64,000 nt of DNA from Bretschneidera sinensis. Taxonomy: Eukaryota > Streptophyta > Magnoliopsida > Brassicales > Akaniaceae. Location of the stretch: the NCBI GenBank assembly GCA_023935145.1, contig CM043700.1:100420400-100484399 (forward strand). The letters run 5' to 3'. Below are positions 9,933 to 64,000 of the stretch, piece by piece (within the stretch, counting starts at the first letter, position 1; every line of letters begins with the position of its first letter). Under the pieces are notes generated by a model. The model ran no database searches, was not told the origin of the DNA, and worked only from the letters and a program-made list of their open reading frames with translations. The position numbers and the translations under genes are program-made.

Positions 9933-11265
9933 TGTTGTGCATTTATTTACCTAAATAAATAACGAATAATCATACTAGTTATACTTGCAAGTGCACAAGG
10001 TCATGTAGTCTAGTGTGCAAGAGCAAGGTCATCTCCACAGGGATTGGTAAAGTTGCTTTTTAGAATTAGTTTCTTTAAGTAAAAAGAAATAAAATAACTG
10101 TTGTGTGTGATTTGATAATAATAAAGGTATAGGGCATTGATATCCACCACTAGTCGTACTTTCCCAATTGTATAAAGTATCAGTGCACTAGCCTTATCAT
10201 GTATACCTACTGGTTGCCAACCTAAGGGCATGGTATCTACTCCTTAAGCTATTGATTTCCCTAAGCAACGAGTTAGGCATGGTATCTACTCTAACTCTTT
10301 TCTTCCTTAAGGGATTCAGCATGGTATCTGCTTGAGTTGTTCCTTAAGAAAACATAAGTACTATGGAAATCGACAACCATATGAGACCTAGGGCATGGTA
10401 TCTACTCCCGGTTTCCCATGTTGATTAACCCGGGTATCCGGATAAGATATCCCTTGTTACTAATGTTAGACCCAGGACTCGGTCATCCAAATTGATCTAG
10501 CTAACCAATCCATACCACATGCATACATTGGCCATACACATACATATGAGAAATTTAAATAAGCACAGGCATTAATCAAGTTAAGCAACATAATAAAGGC
10601 TATTGGCAAAGATTTTATCAATGAATATAAATATGGGAATGCATAACTAGGGCTTCAATCGAGCCCTATAAGAAAGTTAGTTACACATACTATCTGAAGT
10701 AAACATTATAAATAAACTAAACATTAAAGGAGAAGAATAAACTCGAGAAAAGAGGCATCAATTCTCTCCTAAGCTCTCAACTCCAAGTAAAAGAAAAGAG
10801 AAAAGTGTTTTCTATCTCAGGTGTCTTTATGTATGTGAGTTACAAGTGTATTTATAGGTCTTTGAGAAGTCCTAAGAGACCCATGAATTCCTAAACCTTC
10901 CTAAAACGAAAATTCTATTATTTCCAAAATAGGGTTTTGCAGTTTACTGTTCACGCCCGTACATGTGCGCTTGATCGCATATGTCTTGCGCTCGATCGCA
11001 GTGTGCGCTCGATCCTTCATGTGTGCGCACGATCACAATGTGTGCTCGATCGCATTTCATGGTGCGATCGATCGCAATTTGTCCAAAGAATGCTCCAGGG
11101 ATTCCAGATTTCTTCCTTTAAGTGCCAAAACTGCTTCTTTTTCTCCAAAACCCTATAAAAACATGTAAAACACACAAATGGAGTAAAAGAGACCAAATTA
11201 ACATAATTAAGGACCTAACAAATGTAAATAAGAGGGCTTAAATATGAATATTTAAGCATCTATCA
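9933..11265 (-). repeat. 3' LTR of C
   Basis: Left LTR of the minus-strand element: on the minus strand it starts TGATAGATGC (at 11265) and ends AACA (at 9933). TATAAATA (minus) is at 10849-10856. Six copies of a TGCGCTCGATCGCA-like motif lie at 10958-11082, upstream of the TATA box. Short repeats of GGCATGGTATCTACTC occur at 10226-10400. Confidence 0.93.
10849..11082 (-). promoter_or_regulatory. LTR promoter of C: GATCGAGCGCA array and TATA box
   Basis: Array of six 14-15-base motifs (consensus TGCGATCGAGCGCA on the minus strand) at 10958-11082, followed about 100 bp downstream by TATAAATA at 10849-10856. The second LTR has the same array at 21546-21660. H has the same order in its LTRs. 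Regulatory role is inferred from position. Confidence 0.6.
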
Positions 11266-11279
11266 CACCCCCAAACTTA
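11266..11279 (-). other. polypurine tract of C
   Basis: Minus-strand AAGTTTGGGGGTG directly before the 3' LTR; the site that primes plus-strand DNA synthesis in LTR elements. The same tract precedes the 3' LTRs of A, B, E and H. Confidence 0.85.
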
Positions 11280-12685
11280 CATATTGCTAGTCCCTTAACA
11301 ATACTAAATTAAAAACTAAAACGAAAAATATAGATAAATCTAATGTTCATAGTGTCAATCAAAAGTCTAGATTTTACACAAAACTATGATGCACATTCAC
11401 GAGCAAGCTTAACAAGTGTAAATATATTTTTGCAATGAATAAGAGTTTTGAACATAAATCATATTCATGAGGTAGTTTAAGACATCACAAGTTTGACTTT
11501 AGTGTGTGGTGACTAGCACACAAAAGATTGGGCTTCCAAGAAATTCAAATGTGTAGTGTTTCGATGACTCAAGATTCACCAAACTTCCTATTAGAGTCAA
11601 CAAACATGGCATAGACTTTTATTTGTGAGATTTTTGCCACGTTAGTTCTCTTAAGCTTTCTTGTTGACTCGTGTAACGAGTGTTTAGCCAATGACTCCCA
11701 AACCAGATGGTTTTAGGGCATTAGGTGTAAAGACACCCCTAAGGACTTACTAGCTCGAGTCAACAAGGCTACGAAACTAACTGGTTTTAATGCTACTACT
11801 TAGAATTTTCCACCTTTTGACGTGACACTCAATGCTTACTGAGGCAAGAGGGCCAGTTACTCGGCAGAAGATTCTTTTTAATGATCACTTAGAATTTTTC
11901 ACCTTTTGACGTGACACTCAATGCTTACTGAGGCAAGAGAGCCAGTTACTCGGTGGAAGATTTGTTTTTATTGATCATTACGAGCATTTTTTTTTCTTTT
12001 GAGCACTAATTAATCTTTTCTATTTTTATATGCCAAAATGTCAATCTAATAGGTCATCTAATTCACAGTCAAGCAAAAGAAACATACAAATCCAAATAAC
12101 ATGTCATACCCCACACGATCATGTGCTAATGTGCTCGTGATAGTTTAAGCTAAACTTGTGAATTCTTAAATTCCTAAAGGGCAGTGATCTAGGTTCAAAA
12201 CTTGATTATTGGCCTATATGTTCAAAGTGTTAAGCTCGCTGATGAAGTCGAATCATACAGTTTTGTTTTAGATCACAAAAAAATGTTTATTGGACAAAAT
12301 GAACATGCATTTATCTATGAAAATAGCAACAAAACAATAACAAAAATGTAGGACATAATGAGTGTGTGAATGTGTCCCCATACCCCCAAACTTAAAATGC
12401 ACATTATCCCCAATGTGTGAGTAGCATGGAAGGATCTGACCTGGGAGATTGAGAGCTATATGGCTGGCATGGCTTGTAGCACACCCTCAAACTTTAGCTG
12501 GATGCACTGACACTGTCCTTGAAAAAGAAAGAAAAACAAATATAAAATGGAAAACAAATAAGAAACAATAATAGAAAAGTAAACTAGAAAATACTAAAAA
12601 TAACATAAACTATAAAAAATGATATGCATTGGGGTGCCTCCCATGAGCGCTAAGTTTAACGTCTTCAGCCAGACGTGGTATCCTC
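11280..12685 (-). other. 3' untranslated region of C with conserved hairpin modules
   Basis: About 1.4 kb with no credible ORF. In element order: ACATTGGGGATAATGT-type inverted repeat (12401-12419) followed by a second AAGTTTGGGGGT tract (12380-12393); two tandem copies of a CACTGAG..CTCAGTAAGC block (11893-11960 and 11808-11870); and the AGGGGTGTCTTTACACCT / CCATCTGG twin hairpin block (11694-11749). All recur in A, E and H at the same relative places. Confidence 0.7.
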
Positions 12686-13813
12686 TCACTGCTGATCATC
12701 AGGTGGTGCAGTCGAAGAGGTACCGGGTGTCGGAAGTAGGCGATCAAGAATGGCCTGCAGCATAGCCTCCTGTCGTGCTAACCGTGCCTCCAAACTATCC
12801 ATGTGCTAATGCACGAGTATGGTAGTAACAAAGACCTCACCTTGGAAGGAGGACAGCTCAGCTAGAAAGTGCTGGGACTCAATGGGTCCCATGTCTGAAG
12901 GGTCCTCCTCACGTACTGGGCTAATGACCGGGGTCTCGGTCTCCATGCGATCCTCCTCAACTCGCTCAGCTGCTGGAGCGGGTGCCAGGAGTCCTCATGG
13001 CATATGCGAGATGCTGTGTGTCCACTGAGCCTTCTCGAAGAAGGGATGCTCTCGCACTGGCCCGTCGCTATAGGTCCTCTTAATCCCCTTCTTCTTGAGG
13101 ATGAAGGTGAGTAGGAACGGGAAAGGGAGGCCCCAAGCATTGGCCGTGGTGATGTGACGGCCATGCACGTGATCCAAAAACTTATGTAACTGGCTCTAAA
13201 TGATAGTCGGGATGGAGTACCAGTGGCCTCTATATAAGGCATATATAGTTTGGAGAAACTGGTCTCGCCGCTGTGTCTTGTGCCCCAATGGACACACGTT
13301 ACGCTATAGGATCGTATCAACAAGCCACAGTCGGGGAGGTAGCTTGGACCGACTGGCCGCATTGTTATGCCTGTTGGCATACTGGCTAGCGCACATGTCC
13401 GTGATGATCTCAGCCAGGGCAAAGGACTCCAGCTACTCCTCGATATCAGTGCCCTCAAGAGGGGACTCATCGGTGCAATGAAGAGCAGCGACGATATCGA
13501 CAGTAGCCACCTCTATGGGCGTGCCCCAGACTGAAGAGGTGAGGACTCCCGGTCTACTGCAGTCGAAAGATAGATGCTCATAAAATTGGACTACGAGCTG
13601 GGAGTAGGCAGTGGAGCACACTGGTTTAAACAACCACTTCAACCCTCGATGTCGGACTACTTGGACGGCCCAGTGTGTGGCATTCATGTGCCGGAATATG
13701 TCATCGATGGCGAATATGGTCTCGATCAACAGCTCTCGTTGCTCGATGCTGGGCCGGGATGAGGAGGCACGGCTGCTTGAGGCACCAGAGGTAGAAACAG
13801 TTGGTCTGGACAT
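12686..13813 (-). pseudogene. Transposase_32-like ORF downstream of pol in C
   Basis: A single frame of 375 codons from ATG 13813 to TGA 12686, broken by four stops (13433, about 13195, 12995, about 12808) without frameshift. It starts MSRPTVSTSGASSSRASSS (Ser-rich). It then has RHRGLKWLFKP, LVVQFYEHLSF and SSVWGTPIEVATVDIVAALH, which follow the layout of the 'putative plant transposon protein' domain seen in D. The middle part reads AWGLPFPFLLTFILKKKGI and the C-terminus a coiled stretch (DSLEARLARQEAMLQAIL). Athila elements are known to carry an extra ORF here, often called env-like. I see no signal peptide or convincing membrane segment, so the env label is not supported. Function unknown. 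Confidence 0.7.
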
Positions 13814-14611
13814 GCTTGATACTAGTTTCTGCCAAATTTGCGATTGATCGTGACTTGCGTGCACTCGATCGCACACTGTCAGACTTTTCCTCGAACAGTT
13901 GATGCGCACCAAAAAAAAAGCTACGATCTTGATGAGTTGAATGTGTGCCAAACCTCCTGCAAACAAACAAGCACTCAATCACACTCAAGATAACATATAA
14001 GAATAAAGAGTTTTGTAAATAAAACATTAAAATTCGTGTGTGTGTGTGAAGAGTACCTTGTGGATTAATAGGGATGGGAATATGGGGTTTTAACAGTGGA
14101 GGTGATGGTGATTGCCGGTGATAGAGGCAATGGAGGATGACGGAGGATGGTGGAGATGGAAGTGGTGGTGAATGATGGTGGCAAAGTGTGAGCATGAGAG
14201 ATGCGGGTAGACAGGAAGAGCGAGTGAGAGAGAGAGTGTAGGGTGCGATTGAACATAGTGAAGAGGTGTGAGTGCGTGAGTGAAGGTTTTCAGATATATA
14301 AATGTTTCTGCCATGAATGCACTCGATCGCACACGGGGTGCGCTCGATCGCACTCGTGCGCTCGAGCACGTTTGAAGGACACGCTCGATCGCACACTTGC
14401 GCTCGATCACACTGGATGATGCGATCGATCGCAAAGAGGGCATATGGGCAAAAGAAAAAACTTACTGTAGCTAACAAAAATGATAATTTATTGAAACAAT
14501 ACAACCTTACTATTTTTTAGTGGCCTCAGTACCACTAACCTCAATAGAAGTGCTTGAGCTTAATGGGAAATCAATTTTTTTACTTTGCTCAAGCACTCTC
14601 TTGCTACCGTG
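13814..14611 (-). promoter_or_regulatory. pol to extra-ORF spacer of C with GATCGAGCGCA array and TATA-like box
   Basis: Non-coding. A second array of the LTR motif lies at 14315-14443 (at least five copies, e.g. TGCGATCGATCGCA) and one more at 13838-13880. A TATA-like TATATATC (minus) lies at 14293-14302, just downstream. A CAT/CCA-rich low-complexity stretch covers 14090-14210 and (TG)n sits at 14037-14048. The order array, TATA, ORF mimics the LTR promoter, so an internal promoter for the ORF at 13813 is possible. ORFs reported on either strand here are translations of the repeated motif. Confidence 0.45.
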
Positions 14612-15609
14612 CTAGTTGGTTGGTGGGGGGCACTTAGAGCCCACCTCTTGGAGCTCTAGTGCTTGTGTTTCAGTTGTATACTGTACTGATTCAAGTACCA
14701 AATCTTCATCTCTTGGAGGAATGTTAATGTCGAGGTAAGGCTTGGCTCTGTGGCCATTGATTGTAAAGGGCTAATTTCTGTTGGGGCCATAGACTTCTAA
14801 TGCACCATGAGGGAAGACCTTGGTGACCATGTACGGACTGGTCCATCTGGATTTGAGCTTGCCTGGGAACAACCTCAATCGTGAGTCATATAACAACACC
14901 TTTTGTCCTACATGGAACTCCTTCCGAACTAGTTGTTTATCATGATAAACTTTTGTTCGTTCCTTGTACAACTTTGCATTCTCATAGGCATCATATCTCA
15001 ATTCTTTAAGCTCATTTAGATGCAGTTTCCTTTTCTCATCCGCTTGCTTCATGTCGAAGTTGAACTGCTTAATGGCCCAATATGCTCGATGCTCTAATTC
15101 CACCGAGAGATGGTATGCTTTTCCAAAGACTAGGCGGTAGGGAGACATGCCAATTGGAGTCTTATAAGCTGTCCTATATGCCCATAGAGCATCATTTAAG
15201 CGTAGAGACCAATCCTTCCATTAGTCTTCACAGTCTTTTCTAATATTCCCTTGATCTCTCGGCTGTTTATCGCTACTTGGCCACTGGTTTGAGAATGATA
15301 TGGAGTGCCAACTTTATGAGTGATCCCATACTTCCAGAGTAGTTCGGCAAAAGAACGATGATGAAAGTGACTGCCCCCATCACTGATGATTGCTCTTGGA
15401 GTTCCAAATCGAGTAAAAATGTTAGCTTGCAAAAACTTGATAACTACTTTGTGATCATTAGTCCTTGAGGGGACAGCCTCGACCCATTTAGACACATAAT
15501 CCATGCCCACAAGAATATATAAATAACCAAATGAATTAGGAAATGGTCCCATGAAATCAATGCCCCATACATAAAAAATTTCTACTATATGAATATTTTG
15601 TAAGGGCAT
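14612..15609 (-). pseudogene. integrase core and C-terminus of C
   Basis: Integrase inserts the element DNA into the genome. Visible parts: [20 protein letters not shown] (first catalytic Asp), [13 protein letters not shown] (second Asp) and [13 protein letters not shown], where the catalytic Glu of 'GQVEISNR' is replaced by Ala. A frameshift at about 15200-15225 moves the rest to another frame: [20 protein letters not shown], then [33 protein letters not shown] and GALEVYG. A stop at 14771 precedes the final part, which ends at 14612. The first zinc-binding part is in the upstream piece. Confidence 0.9.
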
Positions 15610-15615
15610 TTGATT

Positions 15616-17769
15616 TCAAGAAGAGATGTTACCTGTCCGCTGGCATCTATTACATAAGCTGCAAAAGGAGAAAGCATCTTTAAATAGGCTAGGCCAATAA
15701 AAACCTGATTGGAGTACCTTAAGAGCTGTTCGTTTTGCTCCAAAATGTCTTCCATAAGCGAACTGGTGGTAGTGTTGCAATAAGCTAAAGTGTTCCTCAT
15801 CTGGGATACATCGTCTGATGATTTGATCGGAGCAAGCTTTGAAAAGATAAGGATCATCCCAATAGTAATGTCTTGACAGAGATATCAGCCGTTTCTTTTC
15901 TTGAGTAGTCATGCCTGGAGGAAAAACTTTAGCAGTTAGATAATTTACTATATTAGCGTACCATGGGAGTTTTACCTCTAGTGCGAATAGTTGTTCATCG
16001 GGGAAGTTCTCATTTAATGGTAACTCTTTATCATCACTCTCATAAGGAAGTCTTGACAAATGATCCGTAACTACATTCTCACTACCTTTCTTGTCTTTGA
16101 TCTCTAAATCGAATTCTTGTAGGAGGAGTACCCATCTGATTAGCCTAGGCTTTGCATCTTTCTTAGAAAACAAATATCTCAAAGCAGCATAGTCAGTGAA
16201 TACAATAACTTTAGAACCAATAAGATATGATCTTAACTTCTCTAAAGCAAAAATAACAGCTAACAATTCTTTTTTAGTAGTAGAATAGTTAAGCTGAGCA
16301 TCATTTAACGTTCTAGAAGCATAGTAAATAGCATGAGGTATCTTATTGATTCTTTGATCTAAGACAGCTCCCAAGGCGAAGTCACTAGCATCACACATTA
16401 ATTCGAAAGGGAGATTCCAATCCGGTGCCATTATTATTGGGGCAGAGGTGAGAACATTCTTCAAGGTGTTGAAATCTTGCATACAATCATCATTCCATTC
16501 AAGCTTGGTATCTTTAGTTAATAATGCACAAAGAGGTCTCGAGATTTTGGAGAAGTCCTTGATGAATATTCTATAAAAACCAGCATGTCTAAGGAAACTT
16601 CTAATGCCCTTGACCGTGAGAGGGGGAGGTAGCCTTGAAATGATGTCAATCTTAGCTTTGTCTACCTCAATACCTTTGTTTGAGATGGAGTGACCCAACA
16701 CAATACCTTGTTGAACCATGGAGTGACATTTCTCCTAATTCAGTACTAAATTACTCTCTTCACATCTCCTTAGGACATTTTCCAAATGATTCAGGCACTC
16801 ATCGAAATTAGATCCAAAGACACTAAAATCATCCATGAACACCTCAATATATTTCTCTACCATATCGAAAAAATTGCTCATCATACATCTTTGAAAAGTG
16901 GCTGGTGCGTTGCATAATCCGAATGACATTCTTCTATAAGCAAATGTACCGAAAGGACATGTGAATGTAGTTTTTTCTTGATCCTTAGGTGCTACGGTAA
17001 TTTGATTGTATCCACTATACCCATCCAAGAAGTAGTAATAACTGTGACCGGCTAACCTCTTTAGCATTTGATCAATGAATGGCAGGGGAAAATGGTCTTT
17101 TCTAGTTACTTTGTTTAATCTCCGATAATCAATGCATACTCTCCAACCCGTTGTTTTTCTTGTAGGTATGAGCTCCTCATCTTTATTCTTTACCACGGTA
17201 ATCCCACTCTTTTTAGGAATAACTTGGACTAGACTCACCCATTTGCTATCTGATATAGGGTAAATGATGCCAACAGCTAGTAGCTTCAATATCTCGGCCT
17301 TTACTACCTCCTTCATGTGTGGGTTAAGTCTTCTTTGAGCATCTCGAATGGGCCTTGCTTCTTCTTTAAGGTAAATATTATGCATGCGCTTTGCTGGACT
17401 TATCCCCTTAATGTCAGCAATGGTCCACCCAATGGCAGTTTTATGCTCCCTAAGAACTCTTAACAGCTTCCCTTCTTCCCCACTACTCAAGTTAGCAGCT
17501 ATAATCACAGGTAAAGTCTCATTTTCTCCTAAGTAGGCATATGTTAAATGCTCGGGTAGCTGCTTTAGTTTCAATGTTGGTGCCTGCACAATGGATGGAA
17601 GAAGAGTAGTATTAATGGGTACGAGAGATTCAAATGGAGGAGGATACATACTGGAGTATTTTGGAGAGGTCGCAAGAAGGTGCACAGCTGTGATGATGTC
17701 ATCAGTAACATCTTCATATTCTTGCTCAATATCCATCTTCGTGAAGCTATGAGTGAGAGTAGTCTCCAA
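15616..17769 (-). pseudogene. reverse transcriptase, RNase H and integrase zinc finger of C
   Basis: One frame with one internal stop (16735, Trp to TAG in LVLN*EKCHS) and a terminal stop at 15616. [59 protein letters not shown] and catalytic FMDDFSVFG at 16828-16839, intact. RNase [42 protein letters not shown] and TDHLSRLP, with its acidic residues in place. The integrase zinc-binding arm follows ([17 protein letters not shown]). Apart from the stops this is the best-preserved pol in the window. Confidence 0.93.
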
Positions 17770-17811
17770 TGGATCAATGTGTTGGACCTGAAAAGCTTGC
17801 TCAATAAAGTC

Positions 17812-18759
17812 TTATATCATACAAACATTAAAGCATTCCAAGTCATCTTGAGGAAGTTTCATTGCATCAAATATTTTAAGCTCTATTTTCTCACCATTGA
17901 TTTTCATACTTACTATACCCTTTTTTACACAGATCTTAGTGTCGGCAGTTCTCATAAATGGTCTCCCTAATATGATAGGCAAAGGTAATGGCATAGGGCA
18001 TTCCTCTATGTCTAATACAATGAAATCAGCAGGTAAAATGAACTCACCAACTTTCACTAAGACGTCCTCGAGAACACCCCCAGGTCTTTTAATACTCCTA
18101 TCTGCCAACTGTAAGGTAATAGAAGTCGGTTGTAGCTCCCCCAAACCTAGGGTTTCGAATACCGTGTAAGGTAGCAAGTTTACCCCCGCTCCTAAGTCTA
18201 GCAATGCCTTGTCAAATAGTTGATCACCTATTCTACAGGGAATAGTAAAACTACCCGGATATTTCAGTTTTGGTGGGAGTTTTCTTAGCAGTACAGCACT
18301 TACCTCCTTAGTTAATGCTACAGTCTCATGCTCTTGAAATTTTCTTTTATGAGTGCAACAATCTTTTAGGAATTTAGCATAGGCAGGAATTTGGTGAATT
18401 GCGTCTAATAATGGAATATTAATTTCAACTTTCCACAAGGTTTCAAAAATATCAAGTAGTTTATTGTCTTTCTTTTGTTTTACTAACCTTTACGGGAAGG
18501 GTGGTGCATTCACCTTCTCCGTCTCACTTACCCTTGATGCTGATGGTGTCTCTTTGGATGTTGCTGGAGATTCCTCATATCCGATTACTTTGCCATTTCT
18601 CAATGTTGTGATAGCCTTTAGTTGTTGATGCCCCCCAGGGTTAGGTAATGTTTGAGCTGGGAGCTCCCCTTGCTTTCTGCCACTGACAAAAAATCCCAAA
18701 TAATTTACGATGTACTCTGCTCCCTTCCTAGGCCAGAAAATCCCATATAATTCTTTCAA
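17812..18759 (-). pseudogene. protease region of C
   Basis: Gag-pol joint and aspartic protease that cleaves the polyprotein. It begins with a linker (LKAITTLRNGKVIGYEE), a stop at 18490, then LLDAIHQIPAYAKFLKD and LPPKLKYPGSFTIPCRIG. The protease active site is ALLDLGAGVNLLPY (D-L-G-A in place of the more common DSG/DTG; typical of Athila). It continues with ITLQLADRSIKRPGG, DFIVLDIEECPMP and LGRPFMRTADTKI. A stop at 17812 separates it from the RT frame, which is the same frame. Downstream 'DPLET..' is the point at which A and E have lost the protease. Confidence 0.92.
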
Positions 18760-18779
18760 CGAAGTTCTTTACTCTCCCC

Positions 18780-20248
18780 AAGAAAATAAAAATGGCATAA
18801 TCTAAACGAATCTACGTGAACTACTACATTTGCATTTACCACTTAGTCCCTCCTCATCCAACACCAAACACATCCAGATGACATTCATATGCAGCAGAGC
18901 AGACACTATGCATACACAACTCTTTAGCTAGTTGTCCCATTTGTACCTCTAGTCTTTGAATTGCTTGCTCATGTGCCGCATTAGTTTGTTTTTGCTGAGT
19001 CATGAACTGTTCTTGTGACATCACCAGTTGTCTTACTAGACTTTTGAGGTCGTTCTTCTTTGGTTCGGGAGTAGCATGAGCAGTGGGATGGGAGTTTTGT
19101 TACTGTCCTTGATTGTTCTGGTTGTTGCTCCACGAGAAATTTGGGTAGTTTCGCCATCCAGGGTTGTACGTGTTGGCATATGGGTTGTTCTTCGGTGGAT
19201 AGTTGTTAGGCCCCACTTAGTTGGCTTGTTCTGGATCTGCAGATGAATACAAAGGACACGTATCAGCATTATGGTCGTATTGAGAACAAATTGCACATAC
19301 CTGGAGTGGAGTGGATGGTAGGCTGGATGAGGCTTTTTGAGTAGTCATAGCTTTTACAATCATATCTAGTTTTCTCTCCATTGCTGCCATTTGAGGGGAA
19401 GATCCTTCATTTACATTTACCTCATACATACCTTTACCCTTGGTCACATGTCTACCTCAAGAGGAGAACTGTTGGGTGTGCTCGCTGAGGGTTTCGAAGA
19501 GCTCCATTGCTTCTTCACTGATTTTCTCCATCAGGACTCCTCCACAACCTGAATCAACAATACATTTGTTAGTATCATTTAAGCCTTCATAGAATGCTTG
19601 TACCAGTTCATCTTGAGGCAGGTTGTGGTGTGGGCATTTTAGTAGCAGCTCGTTGAAGTGTCCCCATGCTTCGAAGAAGAGGTCCCCATCCTTTTATTGG
19701 AAGGATTGGATCTCCTTCCTCATTTGTCTCGTCTTTTGGGCTGGGAAGAACTTCTTCAGGAACTTGCTTGCCAACTCCTCCCAAGTGTGGATGGAAACTG
19801 CAGGCAAAGAATTATACCAAAGTTTAGCATTATATTTCAAGGAAAAAGGGAACAAAATTAAACTTATTCCTTCTTGGTCTAGTCCTTGTGTGTGCTGGAA
19901 CTTGTAAAGATCGAAAAATTCTCAGAGGTGCAAGTGTGGATCTTCATTAGGATTGCCTTTAAAATGAGTCAAAGCATTCAAGATTTGTGGAGATATGTAA
20001 TAATTTTCCGCCGCCTCAGGTTGATCTGCAATGCATGATGGTTGATCAATGTTCCGAGGGATGAAGGAGTGCTTCATCGGTACTCGTGCAGGTGGTTGCT
20101 GGTTCTCGAGCTGTTCTGCCATTTGTGTTTCGTTTTCGACTTCTTATTCGTTCTCCTCGAAGTTGTTCCTTAGCTTTTGTCGGATAGTCCGTTCAAGCTC
20201 GGGATCGAGGGAAAAGAATTCTGGATATCGGGATCGAAGTCTATGTAT
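18780..20248 (-). pseudogene. gag of C
   Basis: Gag of the H type. The homologous start codon of H (ATG 56420) is ATA here (20246-20248), so the start is lost. Order: LDPELERTIRQKL, a block MAEQLENQQPPARVPMKHSF to NALTHFKGNPNEDPHLHL (absent from H), LFPFSLKYNAKLWYNSLPA, FFPAQKTRQMRKEIQSF and GHFNELLLKCPHHNL. The zinc knuckle CAICSQYDHNADTC at about 19240-19280 is intact. An Asn/Pro-rich stretch and a Gln-rich coiled part follow. Stops at about 19919, 19725 and 19455 and a frameshift before 18780 break it. Confidence 0.88.
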
Positions 20249-20491
20249 AAATCAGAAAAACCGGCTTCAGTGTAGCAGTGCAACTCTGCTGCTCGGGTAA
20301 CTCTCTGCCCTAAATGCGCTCAATCGCACAGGAGGTTGCGATCGATCGCAAGTACAACAGAAACTGTGATTTAGGGTTTTATGTTCCTGAAACAGAAAAC
20401 AACTTGATTAGGTTTTGAAAAAAAAATGGTAAAAATAAAATAATAGCAATGATAAAACGAAAGTAATCCTAAAAGAAACTTTTAGCGCACT

Positions 20492-20508
20492 CCCTGGCAA
20501 CGGCGCCA
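20492..20508 (-). other. primer-binding site of C (tRNA-Asp)
   Basis: Minus-strand TGGCGCCGTTGCCAGGG, 16 of 17 bases matching the tRNA-Asp site, 6 bp inside the 5' LTR. Confidence 0.93.
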
Positions 20509-20514
20509 AAAACT

Positions 20515-21846
20515 TGTTGTGCGTTTATTTACCTAAATAAATAAGCGAATAATCATACTAGTTATACTTGCAAGTGCACAAGGTCATGTAGTCTAGTGTG
20601 CAAGAGCAAGGTCATCTCCACAGGGATTGGTAAAGTTGCTTTTTAGAATTAGTTTCTTTAAGTAAAAAGAAATAAAATAACTGTTGTGTGTGATTTGATA
20701 ATAATAAAGACATAGGGCTTTGATATCCACCACTAGTTATACTTTCCCAATTGTATAAGGTATCAGTGCACTAGCCTTATCATGTATACCTACTGGTTGC
20801 CAACCTAAGGGCATGGTATCTACTCCTTAAGCTATTGATTTTCCAAAGCAACGAGTTAGGCATGGTATCTACTCTAACTCTTTTCTTCCTTAAGGGATTC
20901 AGCATGGTATCTGCTTGACTTGTTCCTTAAGAAAACATAAGTACTATGGAAATCGACAACCACATGAGACCTAGGGCATGGCATCTACTCCCGGTTTTCC
21001 ATGTTGATTAACCCGTGTATCCGGATAAGATATCCCTTATTACTAATGTTGGACCCAGGACTCAGTCATCCAAATTGATCTAACTAACCAATCTATACCA
21101 CATGCATACATTGGCCATACACATACATATGAGAAATTTAAATAAGCATAGGCATTAATCAAGTTAAGAACCAATAATAAAGGCTATTGGAAAAGATTTT
21201 ATCAATGAATATAAATATGGGAATGCATAACTACGGCTTCAATCGAGCTCTATAAGAAAGTTAGTTACGCATACTATCTGAAGTAAACATTATAAATAAA
21301 CTAAACATTAAAGGAGAAGAATAAACCCGAGAGAAGAGGCGTCAATTCTCTCCCAAGCTCTCAACTCCAAGTAAAAGAAAAGAGAAAAGTGTTTTCTATC
21401 TCAGGTGTCTTTATGTGTGTGAGTTACAAGTGTATTTATAGGTCTTTGAGAAGTCCTAAGAGACCCATGAGTTCCTAAACCTTCCTAAAACAAAAATTCT
21501 ATTATTTCCAAAATAGGGTTCTGCAGTTTACTATTCACCCCCGTACATGTGCGCTCGATCGCATGTCTTGCTCTCGATCGCAGTGTGCGCTCGATCCTTC
21601 ATGTGTGCGCACGATCGCAATGTGCGCTTGATTGCACTGCATGACGCGATCAATCGCAATTTTTCCAGAGAATGCTCCAGGGATTCCAGATTTCTTCCTT
21701 TAAGTGCCAAAACTACTTCTTTTTCTCCAAAACCCTATAAAAACATGTAAAAATACAAATGGAGTAAAAGAGACCAAATTAACGTAATTAAGGACCTAAC
21801 AAATGTAAATAAGAGGGCTTAAATATGAATATTTAAGCATCTATCA
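20515..21846 (-). repeat. 5' LTR of C
   Basis: 1332 bp, nearly identical to 9933-11265. TGATAGATGC at 21846 leftwards to AACA at 20515. Carries the GATCGAGCGCA-like array at 21546-21660, slightly altered from the other copy (one motif decayed to GCGATCAATCGCA). Confidence 0.93.
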
Positions 21847-23884: not shown

Positions 23885-25113
23885 GCTCCTCGGGAGAGTA
23901 GTGAGACGGAGGAGGCCGCAACACCTGTGCCCCCCTATAAGGAACTTAAGCCTTTACCAAACAATCTTAAGTATAAGTTCTTAGGTCCAGCAGATTCTTT
24001 GCATGTGATTATAGCTTCAAATTTGGTTGATGCTCTAGAGGAGAAATTATTGGATGTTTTAAGAGAGCACAAGGAAGCTATTAGTTGGACTATTGAGGAT
24101 GTCAAGGGGATCAGCCCCTCAGTGGTGATGGACAAGATACATTTGGAGGAGAATTTCAAGCCATCGAGGGAGCCAGAGAGAAGGCTCAACCCAACTATGC
24201 AAGAGGTTGTGAGGACTGAAGTGATAAAGTTATTGGATGTAGGGATCATTTACCCAATCTCTGATAGCAAGTAGGTGAGCCCGATTCATGTCATGCCCAA
24301 GTGGGCTGGATTGACGGCAGTGAAGAATAAGGACGACGAGTTGGTGCCAAATCATGTTCAGTCAGGATGGAGAGTGTGTCTAGACTACCATAAGTTGAAT
24401 GCTGCCACAAGGAAGGATCATTGTCCACTCCCATTTATTGATCAGATGGTGGAGCGCTTGGCTAGGCATGATTACTATTGCTTCTTGGATGGTTATTCTA
24501 GATATAAACAGGTCCTTGTGGACCCCGAAGATTAAGAGAAGACGACGTTTACCTGTCCTTTTGGGAAATTCGCCTACTATCGCATGAATTTTGGGTTATG
24601 CAATGCACCCGCTACTTTTCAGCGGTGCATGGTCAGTATATTCTCTGACATGGTAAAGTGTTTCTTAGAGATTTTCATGGATGACTTCTCCGTGTTTGGT
24701 TCATTATTTGAGGAGTGTCTGCACCATCTCACTTTGGTCTTAGTGTGGTGCAAGGAGAAGAACCCGGTGCTTAATTGGAAGAAGTGCCCTTTTATGGTCA
24801 AGCAAGGTATTATATTGGGGCACGTCATATCTCATCGGGAGATTGAGGTCGAAAAAGCGAAGGTTGACCTGATTTCCAACCTTTCACCCCCACGTATGGT
24901 GAAGGAGGTTTGTTCTTTTCTGGGCCATGCAGGAGTCTACACGTGATTTATCCAGGATTTCAGCAAGATTGCCAGGCCCTTGTGCAATTTGTTGTTGAAG
25001 GATGCCCAATTTGTATTTGATGAGGACTGTAAGAAAGCATTTGGGGATCTGAAGAAGATTTTGACATCCACACCCATTATTCAGCCACCCAACCAGGGTG
25101 TACCTTTTGAGAT
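23885..25113 (+). pseudogene. reverse transcriptase of element A (first part of pol)
   Basis: Resumes A's frame after B. It reads KPLPNNLKYKFLG, VLREHKEAISWTIEDVKGIS, RRLNPTMQEVVRTEVIKLLD, WRVCLDYHKLNAATRKD, TFTCPFGKFAYYRMNFGL and catalytic FMDDFSVFG (about 24674-24700, intact). Then QGIILGHVISHREIEVEKAK, and it ends in 'NQGVPFEI', where copia F enters. Stops at 24272 (Trp to TAG), 24533 and 24944. No protease lies upstream. The frame continues at 41829. Confidence 0.92.
25109..25113. repeat. target-site duplication of F (GAGAT)
   Basis: GAGAT before the copia LTR; partner at 41824-41828. Joining the two rebuilds the A frame '..VPFEI' to 'ICDAS..' of RNase H. Confidence 0.9.
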
Positions 25114-25427
25114 TGTTGGTATTTTTCTAAGGATTAAACTGGTTGAAGAGTTCAGCATCCGATCTAGGTGTGCGCCACAGCACAGGTGGTGTGCATTGCG
25201 GCCACCAGCAAAGGAGGAAGTCTAGGGAGGTGTGTGCAGCGGCATAACCTCACCCACACCGCAGCGCCCAGCAAGGATGAAGACCTAGAGGAGTTTTTGC
25301 CCAATGTGCACCGCGGCCAGCCCTGTTCTGGGCCGCGGTGCCAGGCACAGTTGATTTTTCCTGATCAGCACTTTGGATTGGTGCGTGGGGCTTGGTTAAA
25401 ACGTACATGATCACTTAGACTTGTTGA
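25114..25427 (+). repeat. 5' LTR of F, first 314 bp only
   Basis: Starts TGTTGGTATTTTTC and matches the 3' LTR from 39412 for about 310 bp, including the GC-rich block with GTGCACCGCGGCC and GGGCCGCGGTGCC (25150-25350). It stops at CTTGTTGAAGAGCT, where the D LTR begins with a CTTCTTCTT microhomology. Confidence 0.88.
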
Positions 25428-25600
25428 AGAGCTTCTTCTTCTCTTTGGACTCAAAATACCTGAAAATGCATTGGAATAAGTTAGTGGTCCAATAATATTA
25501 CTTAAGAGTTATCAACACATAAAAGTGCAATAAAGACCGAGAAGAGTCATAAAATGCTAACAATTAAACATCGTTGAGATGCATTTTATGGCCCTTATCA
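25428..25600 (-). repeat. 3' LTR of D, remnant
   Basis: Only the first 173 bp of the LTR (minus-strand TGATAAGGGCC from 25600). It matches 35686-35858 with a handful of differences. The rest is deleted. Confidence 0.9.
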
Positions 25601-27261: not shown

Positions 27262-28332
27262 TTATTCCTCTAAATTCTCATCATCATCTGCATTCCCTTC
27301 ACTCTCTTCACCTGCCTCGGGAAGTGGATCAAAAGATGAACCCGGATAAGGTGGCATAGTAGGAAAATGACCCATATTACAACCAGTAGCGGAGGCAAAG
27401 TGTTGGTACATCTAACCAAAGGAGGAGTTGACCTCCGCTTGATAATCTTCTTGCCGAGCCAAAAATTGGTCTTGATGATCTAACCTAACAATCAATACTT
27501 TCTGCTGAATCTCTATCCGTTCAAGTAGCTCGGCAACCGTGAAATGCCTAGAGGTGGAGGAATGAGCAGCAAATACTACCTCCTCTCCCGGAATTGGTGG
27601 CCTGGAGGTTTTAATCTAAGCTAGTTGGACATCATCAATGGGTCTTTTAGGTGGCTGAATCTCCTCATCAGGGCTGTATTGGACTCTGGCTCGGATGCAC
27701 AATTGGGTTATTAAAGAAGAAAAATATAATCCGAGCTTTTGTCTAATAGTGTGTTTGATCGACATAGCTCGCTCAACAGTTAAGGCACTATAGTGTAAAG
27801 CAGGCATCATCCGCTGACATATAAAATATTGCCAAGCCCTAGTAGTGGCATTGAGAGAAGTACCGGGCAAAGTGATAGGGATATCACCCGTCATTTTCCA
27901 TGTAGTGCCCGGAATACAAAGGGTAGTGCAAATCTCTTCATAATTAATGGTGGACACCTATGCACTGTATTCACTATGTTCAATGTCAGGTAAGCCATAG
28001 AAGCTATTAATGGTTGAGCTTCTAAAAGAAACTGTTTGCCCTCGTACTCTTACTTTACCATTCCTTTGCTCAGGTGCATTTGCATAAAATTCTCTAACCA
28101 AATTTGGGAGGGAAGGAGAGGGTGGTCTTGTAAATGTACCCCAATTCCTATCTAGAATCATTCTAAATAAGGTCGGATTTCCCCTCTCGGTGATGTTGAA
28201 TCCTCATTTGGGAATGGCTTTTCGACTGTGCAACATACTAATATATCTCTCACTTGCCTCAAAACTCAGAAATTTAGTGTCATTATACCCTTGTTGTGCT
28301 TTCCCCCTAGGTCTTTTGGTCTTAGGTGCCAT
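27262..28332 (-). pseudogene. Transposase_32-like ORF downstream of pol in D
   Basis: One frame of 357 codons from ATG 28332 (MAPKTKRPRGKAQQG) to TAA 27262, with in-frame stops at 28204, 27958, 27616 and about 27415 and no frameshift. Its core (NWGTFTRPPSPSLPNLVREF, YANAPEQRNGKVRVRGQTV, FYGLPDIEHSEYS) has the pattern of the 'putative plant transposon protein' domain (Transposase_32), recognised from memory. It then has a hydrophilic part (GLYFSSLITQLCIRA) and an acidic C-terminal tail (EESEGNADDDENLEE). A basic N-terminus and acidic tail suggest a soluble nuclear protein rather than an envelope protein. Role unknown. Confidence 0.78.
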
Positions 28333-29064
28333 TGAAATCAAATATATGTATAATATAGTAGACTTAAGGCAAAATGTAACCACTAAATGGCACAAAAAAG
28401 CAATAAAATGGAAGAAAGTGGGCTTACTTGATGTCTATGTTGGAGAGAAGAAAGACTACCTTCCTTTTGAAGTGTCCTTTGAGAAACCTTAAGTCTTCTT
28501 GTAACCAAACTTTAGAGAGAGAAGCTACCAAAAACAGCAAAATTAGTGAGCAATGATGGTAGAAACAAGAAAGTTTTGAGGCCAAGTGAGTAGGCAAGTA
28601 AGGATTTGTTGCAAAGTGGAGAGAGGAGGTAGTGTGCTGCTGGTTTTGTGAAAAGAGAGATGAAGAAGGAGGCTATAAAATGGCTTTTATAGTGCAAAAT
28701 TTAGGGTTAGCTATGTGCTGGGCTCGAGCTAGCGCTGTGCAATGTGCTGCGGTGCTGGGCCTGGTTGTGTGTGCTGCGCTGTGCGCTGCGGTACGGGGCA
28801 TGGTGCTGTTGAGTTCGGTTCTGGGCACCACAGTGCACACTGGTCTCCAAAAAAAAACTGTGTTGGTTGCCAAAAGAAAAATAAATTAAAGTTAAAAAGT
28901 AATCCTTAAAAATTTAAATTACACTAAAAGAAAAACTAACAATTGAGATTGAATAAAATGTAATTAAAAATAAAACAAACAAATCGAAAGAAAAGAAACG
29001 TACCTGTGTGGTGAAGTTAAGGGAAATAGACCGGATCTATAAGTGGAATTTCTTCCACTTCCGG
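28333..29064 (-). promoter_or_regulatory. pol to extra-ORF spacer of D with GC array and TATA box
   Basis: Non-coding spacer. A GC-rich cluster with repeated TGCTGCGGTGCTGGGC-like motifs covers 28712-28840, and TATAAAAG (minus) follows at 28684-28691, about 350 bp before the ATG at 28332. The same motif type (GCACCGCGGTGC) is arrayed in this element's own LTR upstream of its TATA box. An internal promoter is a reasonable inference. The apparent plus-strand ORF here is a translation of the GC cluster. Confidence 0.5.
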
Positions 29065-34398: not shown

Positions 34399-34548
34399 AT
34401 CTCTCGGTCTAAATATACACCAACTGAGTTTTTAAAAGTGATAAATAAAACAGAACACAACAAAATCAGAAAATCAAAACTAATAGAAAAGAACGATGGT
34501 ACCGTCTTATCTTAGAGTTGACAAACTTCCTTATAAGTAAGTGCGTTT

Positions 34549-34565
34549 CCCCTAAAACGGTGCCA
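34549..34565 (-). other. primer-binding site of D, degraded
   Basis: Minus-strand TGGCACCGTTTTAGGGG, 13 of 17 bases matching the tRNA-Asp site, a few bases from the LTR end (minus-strand ..GCGTAATCA). Confidence 0.8.
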
Positions 34566-34570
34566 AAATT

Positions 34571-35858
34571 TGATTACGCCCAAAACATATGCGGTTGTTA
34601 TAGCACGGCTTTGGGGTGTTGAATCCACAAGGAAACAAGTTAACTAAAAAACAAGGTGTGAACCACAACACAAACGATAAAGATTTAAGTGAGTAGATAT
34701 GAATTTCTGGTAATGAAGTAATTGTGTAAAATAGATTGTAAAATATAATAGGAGGATAACAAGGATCCGGGAATCGTCCCTAGGTTCGTTGCCCTACACC
34801 TAACTTGATTCAGTTATTTTTATCTCAGTTTCAAGTTTTGCATCCTAAACAGGCAGCCGGCAAGTATTCAATGAGCACATATATAAACCTTAATATGATT
34901 GTAATGAAATACTTCTTATTTTCGATTCATGCACATGTGATATATCCTATAGGTTTATCAAGAAACGACAATATATCTTTGTTGACAATATTACAGTAAT
35001 GGACAAACCTAAAAGCTAGATTTACTGGACTCAATTATACTGAAACAATCTTGACATAAGAGAAGCATGACTAAATTTATATCAAGGAAGAAGATACAAT
35101 CACCAGAATAGATAAGATCTTATAATTAGATAAAGAAGTAAATCATGACAATGTTTGACAATAAATTCTTATTACAACTAAATCAAATAAGGGAAGGTAG
35201 GAACAACTACACCTAGGGATTTATCCCTTCACCTTTCTTGGAAGTTAGTTAGCCATGGTGTCCATGACTAAACACTTTTGTAGATGAGAGCTGCTGCCTT
35301 CAGTTTTCTGGGTTTTTCTTCATAACCAAGATCCCCTCTCTTAAGCCCTAAGTGTCCTATTTATAGTACAAGGGTCCAAGGGGTGTTCTTGGGTTTTAAT
35401 CTAATATTTAAAACCCTAATTAAAGTCTAACTCGGAGATACAATCCTGTGTGCGTACTGCGGTGCTGCTTGAGGAGCACCGCGGTGCTAGGCATAATCTA
35501 GCTGGGCGAGCTTCTGGGCACCGCGGTGCTGGCTGTTTGTTCACAATGAGGGAGTTTCTGGGCATTGCATTGCTGATTGAGGAGCACCGCGGTGCTGGTT
35601 GTTTACTGGTTTTCTTTATGCTTTGCCTCTCCGCAGCCACTCCTATGCTTCGTCGTTCATGAAACCTTGGTGCTTTTAAACAACGATCACTTCTTCTTCT
35701 CTTTGGACTCAAAATACTTGAAAATGCACTGGAATAAGTTAGTCGTCCAATAATATTACTTAAGAGTTATCAACACATAAAAGTGCAATAAAGACCGAGA
35801 AGAGTCATAAAATGCTAACAATTAAACATCGTTGAGATGCATTTTATGGCCCTTATCA
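34571..35858 (-). repeat. 5' LTR of D
   Basis: 1288-bp LTR, minus-strand TGATAAGGGCC (35858) to GGCGTAATCA (34571). TATA box (minus TATAAATA) at 35358-35365. Five copies of a CACCGCGGTGCTGG-like motif, three of them with the palindrome GCACCGCGGTGC, at 35455-35610, upstream of it. Confidence 0.92.
35358..35610 (-). promoter_or_regulatory. LTR promoter of D: GCACCGCGGTGC palindromes and TATA box
   Basis: Perfect palindromes GCACCGCGGTGC near 35484, 35519 and 35584 with decayed copies between them, then TATAAATA at 35358-35365 on the minus strand. Strikingly GC-rich against an AT-rich background. Regulatory role inferred from place and recurrence. Confidence 0.55.
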
Positions 35859-35869
35859 AAACTAGATGA

Positions 35870-39340: not shown

Positions 39341-39867
39341 AAAGTTGAGTTTGAATCCTAAGTTCTCTGCATAATGGGTTCGGGTTTAATCGCTTAGACA
39401 AAGGTAGAGATTGTTGGTATTTGTCTAAGGATTAAACTGGTTGAAGAGTTCAGCATCAGGTCCAGGTGTGCGCTGCGGCACAGGTGGTGTCCCCCACGGC
39501 CACCAGCAAAGGAGGAAATCCAAGGAGGTGTGTGTCACGGCACAGCCTCCCCCACGCCGTGGCGCCTAGAAAGGATGAAGACCTGGAAGAGTTTCTACCC
39601 TGTGTCCGCCGCAACAACCCTGTTATGGGCTGCTGCGCCAAGTACATTTGATACTTCCTTATCAACACTTTGGATTGGTGTGTGGGGCTTGGTTAAAATG
39701 CACAGGATCACTTAGACTTGTTGAAGGGCTATGATTCATTGGTCATCAAGATCTAAGGGTTGAGATTGTCTTCAAGATTGGTTCAAGAAGTGGTTGCACT
39801 ATATAAAGGATCATTTAGGAGCAATAACAAAATGTGTGTGAAATAGAACACATGGTGTGTGAGAGTG

Positions 39868-45617: not shown

Positions 45618-45623
45618 AGTTTT

Positions 45624-54900: not shown

Positions 54901-56164
54901 TGATAAGTGCTTAAATAGTCATATTTAAGCCCCTTAATTTACACTTGTTAGACTCTTTACTTATCTATTTTAGTAGATTATACTTCACTTTCATGTGTTG
55001 TGTGTTTTTCACAGGTCTTGGACAAAAAGATAACAAAATGGAGCTTTTAGAAGCAAAAAGTGAAGTTCTGCCCTCTAGCAAGGTGCGCTCGAGCGCACCC
55101 CTCTTGAGATCAAGCGCACTTGAAGAAGGCTCGAGCGCATATATACGATCGAGAGCGTCCCGCATATGCTCGAGCGCAATTACTCCAGAGGAGACAGAAC
55201 CAGAATTAGAAAGATGTCTTCCGACTCCAAAACGGAATTAGGGTTTTGTGACACCATGAAGACCCTATAAATAGCCCTGTAAAAACACATAACACACACC
55301 TTTTGTTCTAGACTCGAAGTAGAGAGCTTAGGAGAAGAATTGACGACTCATCTCCCGAGTCCTCTGCGGTTTTAGTTTTCTGTTTTTATGTTTAGCATGT
55401 TTACTTTACTTAGCATGTGTAACTAAACTCCTCTAGGGCTTGATTGAAGCCCTAGTTATGCTTTACCACACATTAATTCATTGATTATCTTTGCTATAGC
55501 CTTGTTAGAGTATTTAACTTGATTAATATTTGTTTATATTTACATTCCTCATATGTATGTGCCTGATCAATGTATGCATGTGGTATGGATAGGTTAGTTG
55601 AATCAATTTGGATGACCGAGTCCTGGGTTCGACATTAGTAACAAGGGATATCCACACTGGATTCTCGGGTTAATCAACATGGAAAACCGGGAGCGGACCA
55701 AGCCCTAGGTCCCGGGTGGTTGTCAATCTCCACAGCCCTCATTCTCTCTTAAGGAACAACTCAGTATACACCCATGTTGAATCCCTTAAAGAGAGAAAAG
55801 AGTTAGAGTATACACCATGCCTAACTCATTGCATAGGGAGATCAATAGCCTAAGGTGTGGGCCAAGCCCTTAGGTTGACAACCATTAGATATTCATGATA
55901 AGGCTAGAGCATTGAAACCTTAGTAAGTGGGAAAGTATAATTAGTGGTGGATATCATAGCCCTATGTTCTCATTATTGTTATTCGCTCACTATCAACTGT
56001 TATTTCTCTTTTAACTTAAAGAAATTAGTTATAGATAGAAATTCACCAATCTCTGTGGAAATGATATCGCACTTGCACACTATGCTACCACAGACCTTAT
56101 GCATTTGCAAGTAAAACTAGAATGATTATTTGCATATTTATTTAGGTAGATAATCGCTCCAACA
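54901..56164 (+). repeat. 5' LTR of H
   Basis: 1264 bp, TGATAAGTGC to GCTCCAACA. GATCGAGCGCA-like array at 55083-55180, TATA box TATAAATA at 55266-55273. Nearly the same as the first 918 bp of the 3' copy, so a relatively recent insertion. Confidence 0.93.
55083..55273 (+). promoter_or_regulatory. LTR promoter of H: CTCGAGCGCA array and TATA box
   Basis: Five or six degenerate copies of TGCGMTCGAGCGCA, then TATAAATA 86 bp after the array. The 3' LTR repeats it at 63266-63378 with one extra motif (AGAACACGAGCACACTTG). Same family of motifs as in C. Confidence 0.6.
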
Positions 56165-56170
56165 AGTTTT

Positions 56171-56187: not shown

Positions 56188-56419
56188 ATTGCGCTAAATT
56201 TCTTTTAGAATTAAATTCTCATTCAGTTACCATTATTTCTTATTCTATTTTTATCGTATATTTTTTTTCATTTTACTAAAAACCCTCATCAATTCCTTTT
56301 TCTCTGTTTCAGGCACCCCAGGAAGCTTTTTGTGCCACTTGCGATCGAGCGCAATTAAGGCAAAGAGTCATCCGAGCAGCAGTGTTTGGCTACTGCACTC
56401 ACATATCATCAATTGATTC

Positions 56420-61611: not shown

Positions 61612-63082
61612 TTTCTAGTTTCTATCACACAAAACGTCAGCACTTAAGGAAGTGCGATCGAGCGCAATACTTCTTGTGATCGAGCGCACTTACACCAGAA
61701 CCTTCTTGACTGCACCCACTGATGATCAGCAGTGAGGAGATACCAATCTGGCTAAAGATGTTAAACTTAATGCTCATGGGAGGCACCCAAGACATATCCT
61801 TTTTTTATTTAGTACTTTTCTTTTATAGTCATATTTTCATATCTGTTATTTTGTTTTTCGGAACAACGTTTGTTTTCCTTTGTCAGGTACTTAGTGTGTG
61901 CATCCAGTTCAAGTTTGGGGGTGTGTATAATCAAGCAAGCAACCTAGTTCTCCTTCTCCCAGGTCATATCTTTCTATGCCACACATATTGGGGACAATGT
62001 GCATTTTAAATTTGGGGGTAGTGGGAGACACTAGATACTATCACACGCGCACTTGGAACACATGCACACACTAAGTCCCAGTTTTTTTTAGGAGGATAAA
62101 TGCATGTTCTTTTGGTAAACAAAAATTTTGGTTAATTTAAAATTTTGATAACACTTCATTAGTAAGCTTAAAACCTAGAACACATAGTCTTGTATTAAGA
62201 ATTTTACAAAGTTAAGTTAACTACCTCAAGGCACCTAAGACTTCACGAGTTTGATTTAAATTTGCACAAGCACATTTAGAACGCATTTGTCCGGGGTCTG
62301 ACATATAATTCTTTTGTATATGTTTCCATAACCTAAACTGTAGTCGGATAACTTGTTGAAAAGAACCCTTTGGCATAAGAAAAATAAAGAAAAAAATATG
62401 TTCATCATACAAAAAGAAAATGAAAAAAAAAAAGCTTCCAAAAATCAACTTTCCACTGAGTAACTGGGCCTCTTGCCTCAGTAAGCATTGAGTGTTCACG
62501 TTAAAAGGTGGAAGTTCATCAAGAAGCATGAAAAAAACCTGTTAGTTCCGTAGCCTTTTTTTACTCAAGTTAGTAAGTCCTCAGGGGTATCTTTACACTT
62601 AATGCCCTAAAACCATCTGGTTTGGGAGTCATTGGCTAAACACTCGTTACAAGGGTCATATAGAAAGCTTGATGGAACTCAACATGGAAAAAAAAACGCA
62701 TGATAAAAGAAAAAGAAAAAAAAAGCAAGTATTATGCCATTTTGTTCTCTTTAATAAGAAATTCGATGAAAGTTTGGGTACCGAAACACTATCCACTAAA
62801 ATTATGTGGAAACCCCATCTCATATGTGCTAATCCATCACACACAAATCAAACTTGCAATGCCTTAAGCCAACCTTGGGTAGTTAACATAAAACTTTTGA
62901 AAGTCCTTTTGCAATCCAAAATGTGTTTTTATTATAAGCTTACTCAAGAACGGTTATCGTGGTCTTATGCACAACCCAAATTTTTTAGTACCATGAAAAT
63001 GAATTTATCTTTAAAATTTTGTTTCAACATAGTTTTTGGTTTTGTATTGCTAAAGGACTAGCAATATGTAAGTTTGGAGGTG
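61612..63082 (+). other. 3' untranslated region and polypurine tract of H
   Basis: No ORF comparable to the extra ORF of C and D. Two GATCGAGCGCA motifs at 61652-61690, just after pol. Then TCTGGCTAAAGATGTTAAAC, AAGTTTGGGGGTG (61912), CATATTGGGGACAATGTG (61984-62001), AAATTTGGGGGTA, the CACTGAG..CTCAGTAAGC block (62448-62516), the twin hairpin block (62574-62632, partly decayed) and the tract AAGTTTGGAGGTG (63070-63082). Confidence 0.75.
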
Positions 63083-64000
63083 TGATAAGTGCTTAAATAG
63101 TCATATTCAACCCCCTTAATTTACACTTGTTAGACTCTTTACTTATCTATTTTAGTATATTATACTCCACTTTTGTGTTTTGTGTGTTTTTCACAGGTCT
63201 TAGACAAAAAGATAACAAAATGGAGCTTTTAGAAGCAAAAAGTGAAGTTCTGCCCTCCAGCAAGGTGCACTCGAGCGCACCCCCCTTGAGATCGAGCGCA
63301 CAAGAACACGAGCACACTTGAAGAAGGCTCGAGCGCACATATGCGATCGAGCGCATCCCGCATACGCTCGAGCACAATTACTCTAGAGGCGGCAGAGCCA
63401 GAATTGGAAAGATGTCTTCCAACTCCAAAACGAAATTAGGGTTTTGTGACGCCATGAAGACCCTATAAATAGCCCTGTAAAAACATAAAACACACATTTT
63501 TTGTTCTAGACTCGAAGTAAAGAGCTTAGGAGAAGAATTGACGACTCGTCTCCCGAGTCCTCTTTGGTTTTAGTTTTCTGTTTTTATGTTTAGCATGTTT
63601 ACTTTACTTAGCATGTGTAACTAAACTCCTATAGGGCTTGATTGAAGCCCTAGTTATGCTTTAACACACGTTTATTCATTAACTATCTTTGCTATAGCCT
63701 TGTTAGAGTATTTAACTTGATTAATACCTGTTTATATTTACATTCCTCATATGTATGTGCCTGATCAACGTATGCATGTGGTATGGATAGGTTAGTTGAA
63801 TCAATTTGGATGACCAAGTCCTAGGTTTGACATTAGTAATAAGGGATATCTACACCAGATTCCCTGGTTAATCAACATGGGAAACCGGGAGCGGACCAAG
63901 CCCTAGGTCCCGTGTGGTTGCCAATCTCCACAGCCCTCATGCTCTCTTAAGGAACAACTCAGTATACACCCATGCTGAATCCCTTAAAGAGAGAAAAGAG
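63083..64000 (+). repeat. 3' LTR of H, cut by the window end
   Basis: First 918 bp, TGATAAGTGC onward; same as 54901-55815 apart from scattered changes and an 18-bp insertion in the motif array. Confidence 0.93.

Follow-up and report, generated by a model that had tools for sequence, protein, structure and literature searches.

Two different Athila-type retrotransposons in a 64,000-nucleotide window of the Bretschneidera sinensis genome (the whole stretch of DNA analysed here) seem each to carry an inner promoter built from the repeated signal of their own LTR. In both elements, termed D and A, the spacer between pol and an extra open reading frame (ORF) holds an array of short motifs, a TATA box and a leader that runs up to the ORF. 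The motifs match those of the element's own LTR, and in element A the repeated units are kept while the linkers between them differ. Because the parts are arranged as in a promoter and the array matches the LTR's own, the most likely reading, to which we give a little over even weight, is that the spacer is an internal promoter that carries the LTR's family-specific array and answers to the same factor as the LTR. Specifically, an array of family-specific sites, the ones also found ahead of the TATA box in the LTR of that element, would act in an RNA polymerase II promoter in the spacer, with a TATA box close behind the array and an untranslated leader before the extra ORF. A motif-specific factor, encoded by the host or by the element, would then switch on the full-length RNA and a short ORF mRNA together. 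We infer that transcription starts in the spacer, that a factor binds to the array and that the ORF is translated from the spacer RNA. Since the extra ORFs are broken in both the D and the A copy, the promoter statement concerns the family rather than these copies.

Element D is encoded on the minus strand. It has a 5' LTR read directly at about 35858-34571 and a shortened 3' LTR that was aligned to the 5' LTR and whose LTR start falls at 25600. The two are 97.7% identical over 173 bases (25604-25432 vs 35862-35690), and a copy of an LTR-like repeat at 25.4 kb interrupts the 3' LTR. The order in the sense of the element is pol, an AT-rich stretch, a GC-rich cluster, TATAAAAG, an ATG-free leader and the ATG, the apparent end of pol lying at 29019-29017 in a frame shifted relative to the upstream frame. 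The sequence-only reading had described a GC-rich cluster, a minus-strand TATAAAAG and an ATG at 28332 between pol and the ORF, and all three are present where it placed them. The cluster (28712..28840, minus) is an array of degenerate copies of the LTR motif, the clearest at 28836-28825, 28794-28783 and 28755-28744; it contains TGCTGCGGTGCTGGGC at 28745-28760 and reaches a GC content of 63%, against 38% in the whole window. TATAAAAG (28684..28691, minus, read directly) would be the TATA box of the proposed internal promoter, followed by a putative 5' leader with a pyrimidine-rich start and no ATG (28333..28660, minus), whose start point is deduced from the TATA box. The extra ORF, which matches PF20167 (Transposase_32) and has four in-frame stops, spans 27262..28332 on the minus strand, with its ATG at 28332-28330. 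No ATG occurs within the 368 bases ahead of it (28700-28333); across the whole window, 91 of 12736 overlapping 328-base tiles are ATG-free. TATA-like sites are common (0.73 matches to TATA[AT]A[AT] per kb and strand), so that a TATA box on its own proves little. An inverted repeat, CTATAAAA-TGGC-TTTTATAG at 28673-28692, adds a mirror TATA on the plus strand, and the proposed promoter could, with one TATA box on each strand, be bidirectional. Just past pol and upstream of the array, a T-rich stretch (28858-29003, minus) flanked by CAG/GTACGT and CACAG looks like a plant intron.

The LTR of element D carries, as had also been read from the sequence, a motif array upstream of its TATA box: GCACCGCGGTGC is repeated within 35454..35595 (minus), exactly at 35476, 35518 and 35584 and with two mismatches at 35454, at spacings of roughly multiples of 22 bases, and the TATA box follows at 35365-35358 (minus). 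A weight matrix built solely from these four sites, with the strands scored apart, ranks spacer sites in rows 2, 3 and 8 of all matches outside the D LTR, the best row (25252) lying inside another LTR-like repeat. Dinucleotide shuffles of the spacer equal the summed score of its best four sites in 5 of 1000 cases and the score of its single best site in 59 of 1000; the best local alignment of spacer to LTR array is equalled by 19 of 1000 shuffles (15 of 500 in a second run). A foreign control, the 3' LTR of element E against the D spacer, is equalled by 50 of 500 (z 1.6), so that the margin for the element D match is not wide. Outside D's LTR, the tile 28731-28860 is the window's best match to the D LTR array, with 44 vs 34 for the runner-up region. 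Spacer copy 28836 differs from the 18-base LTR unit at 35529 only at two CpGs of the LTR, which are now TpG, as methylation decay would do. Unlike the LTR array, the D spacer has no excess of palindromes. As such, the cluster appears to resemble its own LTR array modestly beyond composition; with its motif degenerate and palindromes not in excess, element D by itself is weak, and the relation between cluster and LTR is, taken by itself, suggestive only. Past the array, spacer and LTR could not be aligned convincingly, which leaves the array as the sole shared part; a reading of the spacer as a copy of the entire LTR promoter (array, TATA and leader) was rejected for this reason.

The earlier proposal that the ORF has its own promoter on the plan of the LTR is thus narrowed by the degenerate D motif and by a likeness limited to the array, and it gains from a second element, A, that repeats the plan and from matches that are family-specific. 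Element A (9932-21846, minus; LTRs 9932-11265 and 20514-21846, 95.7% identical) shows the order pol, array, TATA, leader and extra ORF in a text unrelated to that of element D and with a different motif. Its pol stops at about 14613; six 14-bp palindrome-like units TGCGATCGAGCGCA lie in the spacer (14318..14433, minus), followed by TATATAT (14294..14300, minus), the TATA box of the proposed internal promoter, and by an extra ORF (12684..13813, minus) that is in pieces, the longest of 126 aa in that frame, with PF20167 below cut-off. The array-to-TATA distance is about 20 bases in both D and A, and the C+T richness of the two leaders is equalled by 1.2% and 0.06% of tiles. The leader of A contains four ATGs, which counts against a simple leader there; two are left if a weak possible intron, AAG/GTAC ... 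TTTGCAG/G (13957..14056, minus), noted by eye, with an acceptor that passes the filter and a donor that fails it, is removed.

Both LTRs of element A bear six-unit arrays as well (3' LTR 10966..11076, 5' LTR 21550..21658, both minus), whose units agree with those of the spacer at 72 of 84 positions for the 3' LTR and 70 of 84 for the 5' LTR; since units were chosen by likeness to one consensus, part of this mutual identity is built in. The linkers, a comparison of 32 positions, are identical at 12 of 32 between 3' LTR and spacer (random mean 35%), as against 22 of 27 between the two LTRs. Unit spacings run 22-17-20-17-21 in the 3' LTR, 22-17-20-17-19 in the 5' LTR and 22-18-23-18-21 in the spacer. 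In element A, units and distances are therefore alike between LTR and spacer, and linker text is not.

Element E (54901 to the window end, plus) shares its motif with element A. It carries a 5' LTR array (55084..55178), a single unit in the gag leader (56340..56353), two units after pol (61653..61688) that were found by motif matching alone, and a 3' LTR array (63266..63376), all on the plus strand, and its extra ORF is missing. When the spacers of A and E were aligned with MAFFT, the E units did not fall on the A array, and this alignment was left unused as evidence. Sites of the A/E type with at most 3 mismatches number 35 in the window: 22 in LTRs, 3 in gag leaders, 6 in the A spacer, 2 in the A ORF leader and 2 in the E spacer. 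None of the 35 falls outside these regions, which make up 8.9% of the window and were delimited with the sites already in view. A scan of the window with one consensus gave 57 strand-wise matches vs 1.0 expected in shuffles. Pairing 8 LTR stretches with 3 spacers (24 pairings) supports a family-specific match between LTR and spacer: the 8 pairings of A or E LTRs with A or E spacers reach z 7.1 to 14.2 and the D LTR with the D spacer z 2.5, against z -0.6 to 1.6 for the other 15. Among the latter, the LTR at 44350-45618 shows no match to any of the three spacers (z 0.5 to 1.5); the pol that runs to about 43486, with which this LTR is putatively associated, passes, by eye, directly into the 3' region, with neither spacer nor ORF.

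At 39868-41437 lies an LTR whose ends are related to the LTR of element D (34516-35860) and whose middle (40125-40495) is common to another LTR family (compare 44350-45618), a mosaic that looks as if promoter cassettes had been swapped between families. An LTR-like repeat at 25109-25433 and 39407-39730 has a GC-rich cluster of its own, with CCGCGG at about 25340-25300; in the copy at 39.4 kb the cluster lies upstream of a TATA-like site.

The arrays could instead be targets of host silencing or leftovers of LTR duplication without promoter function, a reading that we consider the least probable of all. It draws on CpG content, since the 120-base tile of the window with the highest CpG count is the A spacer array, followed by four LTR arrays of A and E, and on Athila6A, where, according to the portion of the report consulted, RDR6-RdDM is described as targeting nearly all copies in which the ENV ORF promoter is retained (PMC4977677). 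Yet linkers at chance level beside like units, as in element A, would be unexpected of a passive duplicate, with the caveat that the units were picked by likeness, and keeping a silencing target brings the element no gain.

Motif units also lie downstream of the TATA boxes, in the gag leader and in the ORF leader, which counts against a purely upstream promoter element, as such an element would not need them. In element A, one pair just upstream of the ORF ATG at 13813 (13839..13873, minus) is followed by GGCAGAAA and another in the gag leader (20315..20350, minus) by GGCAGAGA; the units of these pairs are separated by 21 and 22 bases, and both pairs sit downstream of acceptor-like text (for gag, by eye). 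Of the four GGCAGARA octamers in the window, three lie exactly 5 bases past the last unit of a block in element A, namely in its gag leader, its spacer array and its ORF leader; in element E, the gag leader has GGCAAAGA at the same 5-base offset. The blocks at these places look mutually related. Near the LTR ends of A (20532-20387, minus) and E (56146-56312, plus), donor-like AG/GTAAAT or AG/GTAGAT was seen by eye before the primer binding site, as was acceptor-like TTTCAG before gag; if used, such a leader intron would take the primer binding site out of the spliced RNA.

The units might instead act in RNA, with adjacent palindromes forming hairpins in the genomic RNA for dimerisation, packaging or export, or for the production of small RNAs, which we hold to be quite unlikely. 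Folding of six stretches against 200 shuffles each predicts three hairpins of neighbouring units in the A spacer (z -5.4) and one hairpin in the A gag-leader pair (z -3.6), with 0 of 200 shuffles as stable in either case, and GGCAGARA, with its fixed offset, is partly paired in the predicted stems of both leaders. A clear excess of folding is absent from the ORF leader (z -1.4, 14 of 200), the A LTR (-1.6, 12 of 200), the D spacer (-0.7, 46 of 200) and the D LTR (-0.65, 47 of 200), and a role in RNA alone would hardly account for the U3 arrays ahead of the LTR TATA box. Rows of palindromes fold anyway, so that the z-scores partly reflect the palindromes themselves. With the A spacer and gag-leader pair folding stably and the other stretches unremarkable, an RNA role is conceivable for element A, not in general.

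According to the sequence-only reading, expression of an ORF after pol is usually supposed to need a spliced RNA. This premise overlooks the ENV ORF promoter mentioned for Athila6A in the part of the report available to us (PMC4977677). Both ORFs are preceded by acceptor-like sites, at 13957 in A and at 28383 and 28363 in D. Because of these sites, the extra ORF might be expressed from a spliced, LTR-driven RNA, the spacer giving a splice acceptor and the array being no promoter; we rate this as unlikely, albeit ahead of the other alternatives. Element D has a donor-like CAG/GTACGT at 29003, 13 bases past the apparent end of pol, donors that score like it occurring 0.32 times per kb and strand. 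From partial texts, splicing is reported for barley Bagy2 (PMC7264820), and BAGY2 and Athila are said to have predicted acceptor sites (PMC2829016). Splicing, however, leaves family-matched arrays with TATA boxes unexplained, and acceptor-like sites are frequent, with 12 passing the filter in each of two scanned stretches. A leader intron was set aside as weak in both elements: in D it would span 45 or 65 bases, the nearest donor-acceptor pair enclosing merely 45, and in A the likeliest donor failed the filter. The ENV ORF promoter of Athila6A likewise runs contrary to a splicing-only view, and the readings do not fully exclude each other, given that the same partial text mentions both an intron and that promoter (PMC4977677).

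The elements share RVT_1 and RT_RNaseH domains (D, A and E); Integrase_H2C2 was detected in A alone among the three, and Asp_protease_2, scanned in A and E, falls just below the Pfam cut-off. We take the RT_RNaseH families, and RNase H followed by integrase in one ORF of element A, to mean gypsy-type elements, and the label Athila is presumed from layout, PF20167 and general knowledge rather than from an RT tree. The extra ORF lies in sense after pol in D and A. Two of four scanned pieces of the D ORF exceed the PF20167 cut-off (55.2 and 53.2 vs 45), and one of four pieces of the A ORF gives a weak match (E 0.19); the family is described as a 'putative plant transposon protein'. In 11 pieces of the two broken ORFs, which end at stops, there is no 19-residue stretch with a mean hydropathy above 1.4 that would point to a transmembrane segment. 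The D ORF has a net charge of +7 in its first 42 residues and of -11 in its last 49. Searches gave three short PF20167 proteins as homologues of its 81-residue piece, no protein homologue of its 113-residue piece, no match among solved structures for one extra-ORF piece, and no relative in viral contigs for one D ORF piece or for the pol of E. The 14-base motif occurs in at least 120 stretches of viral contigs, a count that is neither for nor against. Among 34 pattern matches in genome contigs, one locus is gypsy-like; its polymerase is 36% identical to that of element E in the best segment, and its contig, titled Heimdallarchaeota MAG (locus L121), is possibly a eukaryotic contaminant.

A doubtful extension, which we place below the RNA role and above silencing, is that the extra ORF would encode a sequence-specific DNA-binding regulator of the arrays in the LTR and in its own promoter, self-controlling or anti-silencing, with motif and protein having diverged together between the families of D and of A/E. 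Such a self-controlling circuit would be likened to foamy virus Tas, and an anti-silencing factor to VANC.

The internal promoter reading, if correct, bears on several questions. Specifically, an array common to the LTR and the inner promoter hints that one factor controls both, and whether the ORF's own protein is that controller becomes testable. The LTR-matched array also bears on the expression and the role of the post-pol ORF in plant gypsy elements. In addition, such arrays provide a search handle for promoters of this kind in any plant genome.

An internal promoter is not new in principle; an LTR-matched array in Athila-type elements appears to be, and searches of the open-licence PMC literature brought up no description of such arrays ahead of the ORF in elements of this type. 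Athila6A of Arabidopsis, also a Ty3/gypsy Athila element, is the closest in kind: the report seen in part names an internal 'ENV ORF promoter' (Panda et al. 2016, PMC4977677) and states that start sites, ORFs and an intron had been defined, and an internal promoter for the ORF after pol is what is proposed here. Unlike the present elements, the portion of that text on which we draw mentions no LTR-matched array (PMC4977677). Maize Grande has a gene23 between pol and the 3' LTR with its own promoter, as described in an excerpted source (PMC7264820); gene23 is antisense to gag-pol, whereas the extra ORF here is in sense. As far as the consulted accounts go, foamy viruses likewise use a second retroelement promoter, with one factor, Tas, for it and the LTR; they have Tas, while the extra ORF here is at most a candidate factor gene. 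VANDAL transposons resemble the present elements in that dense arrays of short, family-specific motifs occupy non-coding regions of plant transposon DNA, and they encode VANC anti-silencing proteins. They differ, on the partial text, in being DNA transposons with a demonstrated binding protein, the arrays here being known from sequence, and in that VANC sites are not described there as palindromes, unlike the units here (PMC5735166).

The design itself is best matched by the Sireviruses, Ty1/copia elements in which, according to the sections considered, element-specific palindromic boxes cluster in the LTR ahead of the TATA and recur before ENV (Bousios et al. 2010, PMC2829016). These boxes are CpG-rich, and the four motif-bearing elements that have no ENV lack them in the linker; the authors discuss an internal promoter hypothesis, the promoter not being conclusively identified (PMC2829016). 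The likeness, the same palindromic motif in the LTR and before an ENV-like ORF, is clear for A and E and modest for D. In the sections considered the Sirevirus core is CGG-CCG, while the motifs here are GCACCGCGGTGC, in the order CCG-CGG, and TGCGATCGAGCGCA; the present elements also belong to another superfamily, and their array is followed by a TATA box and a leader. With gypsy-type rather than Ty1/copia domains in D, A and E, the present arrays would work like the Sirevirus motif without being a member of that group. If Ty1/copia Sireviruses and Ty3/gypsy elements have arrived at one design, this would be a case of convergence that deserves an explanation.
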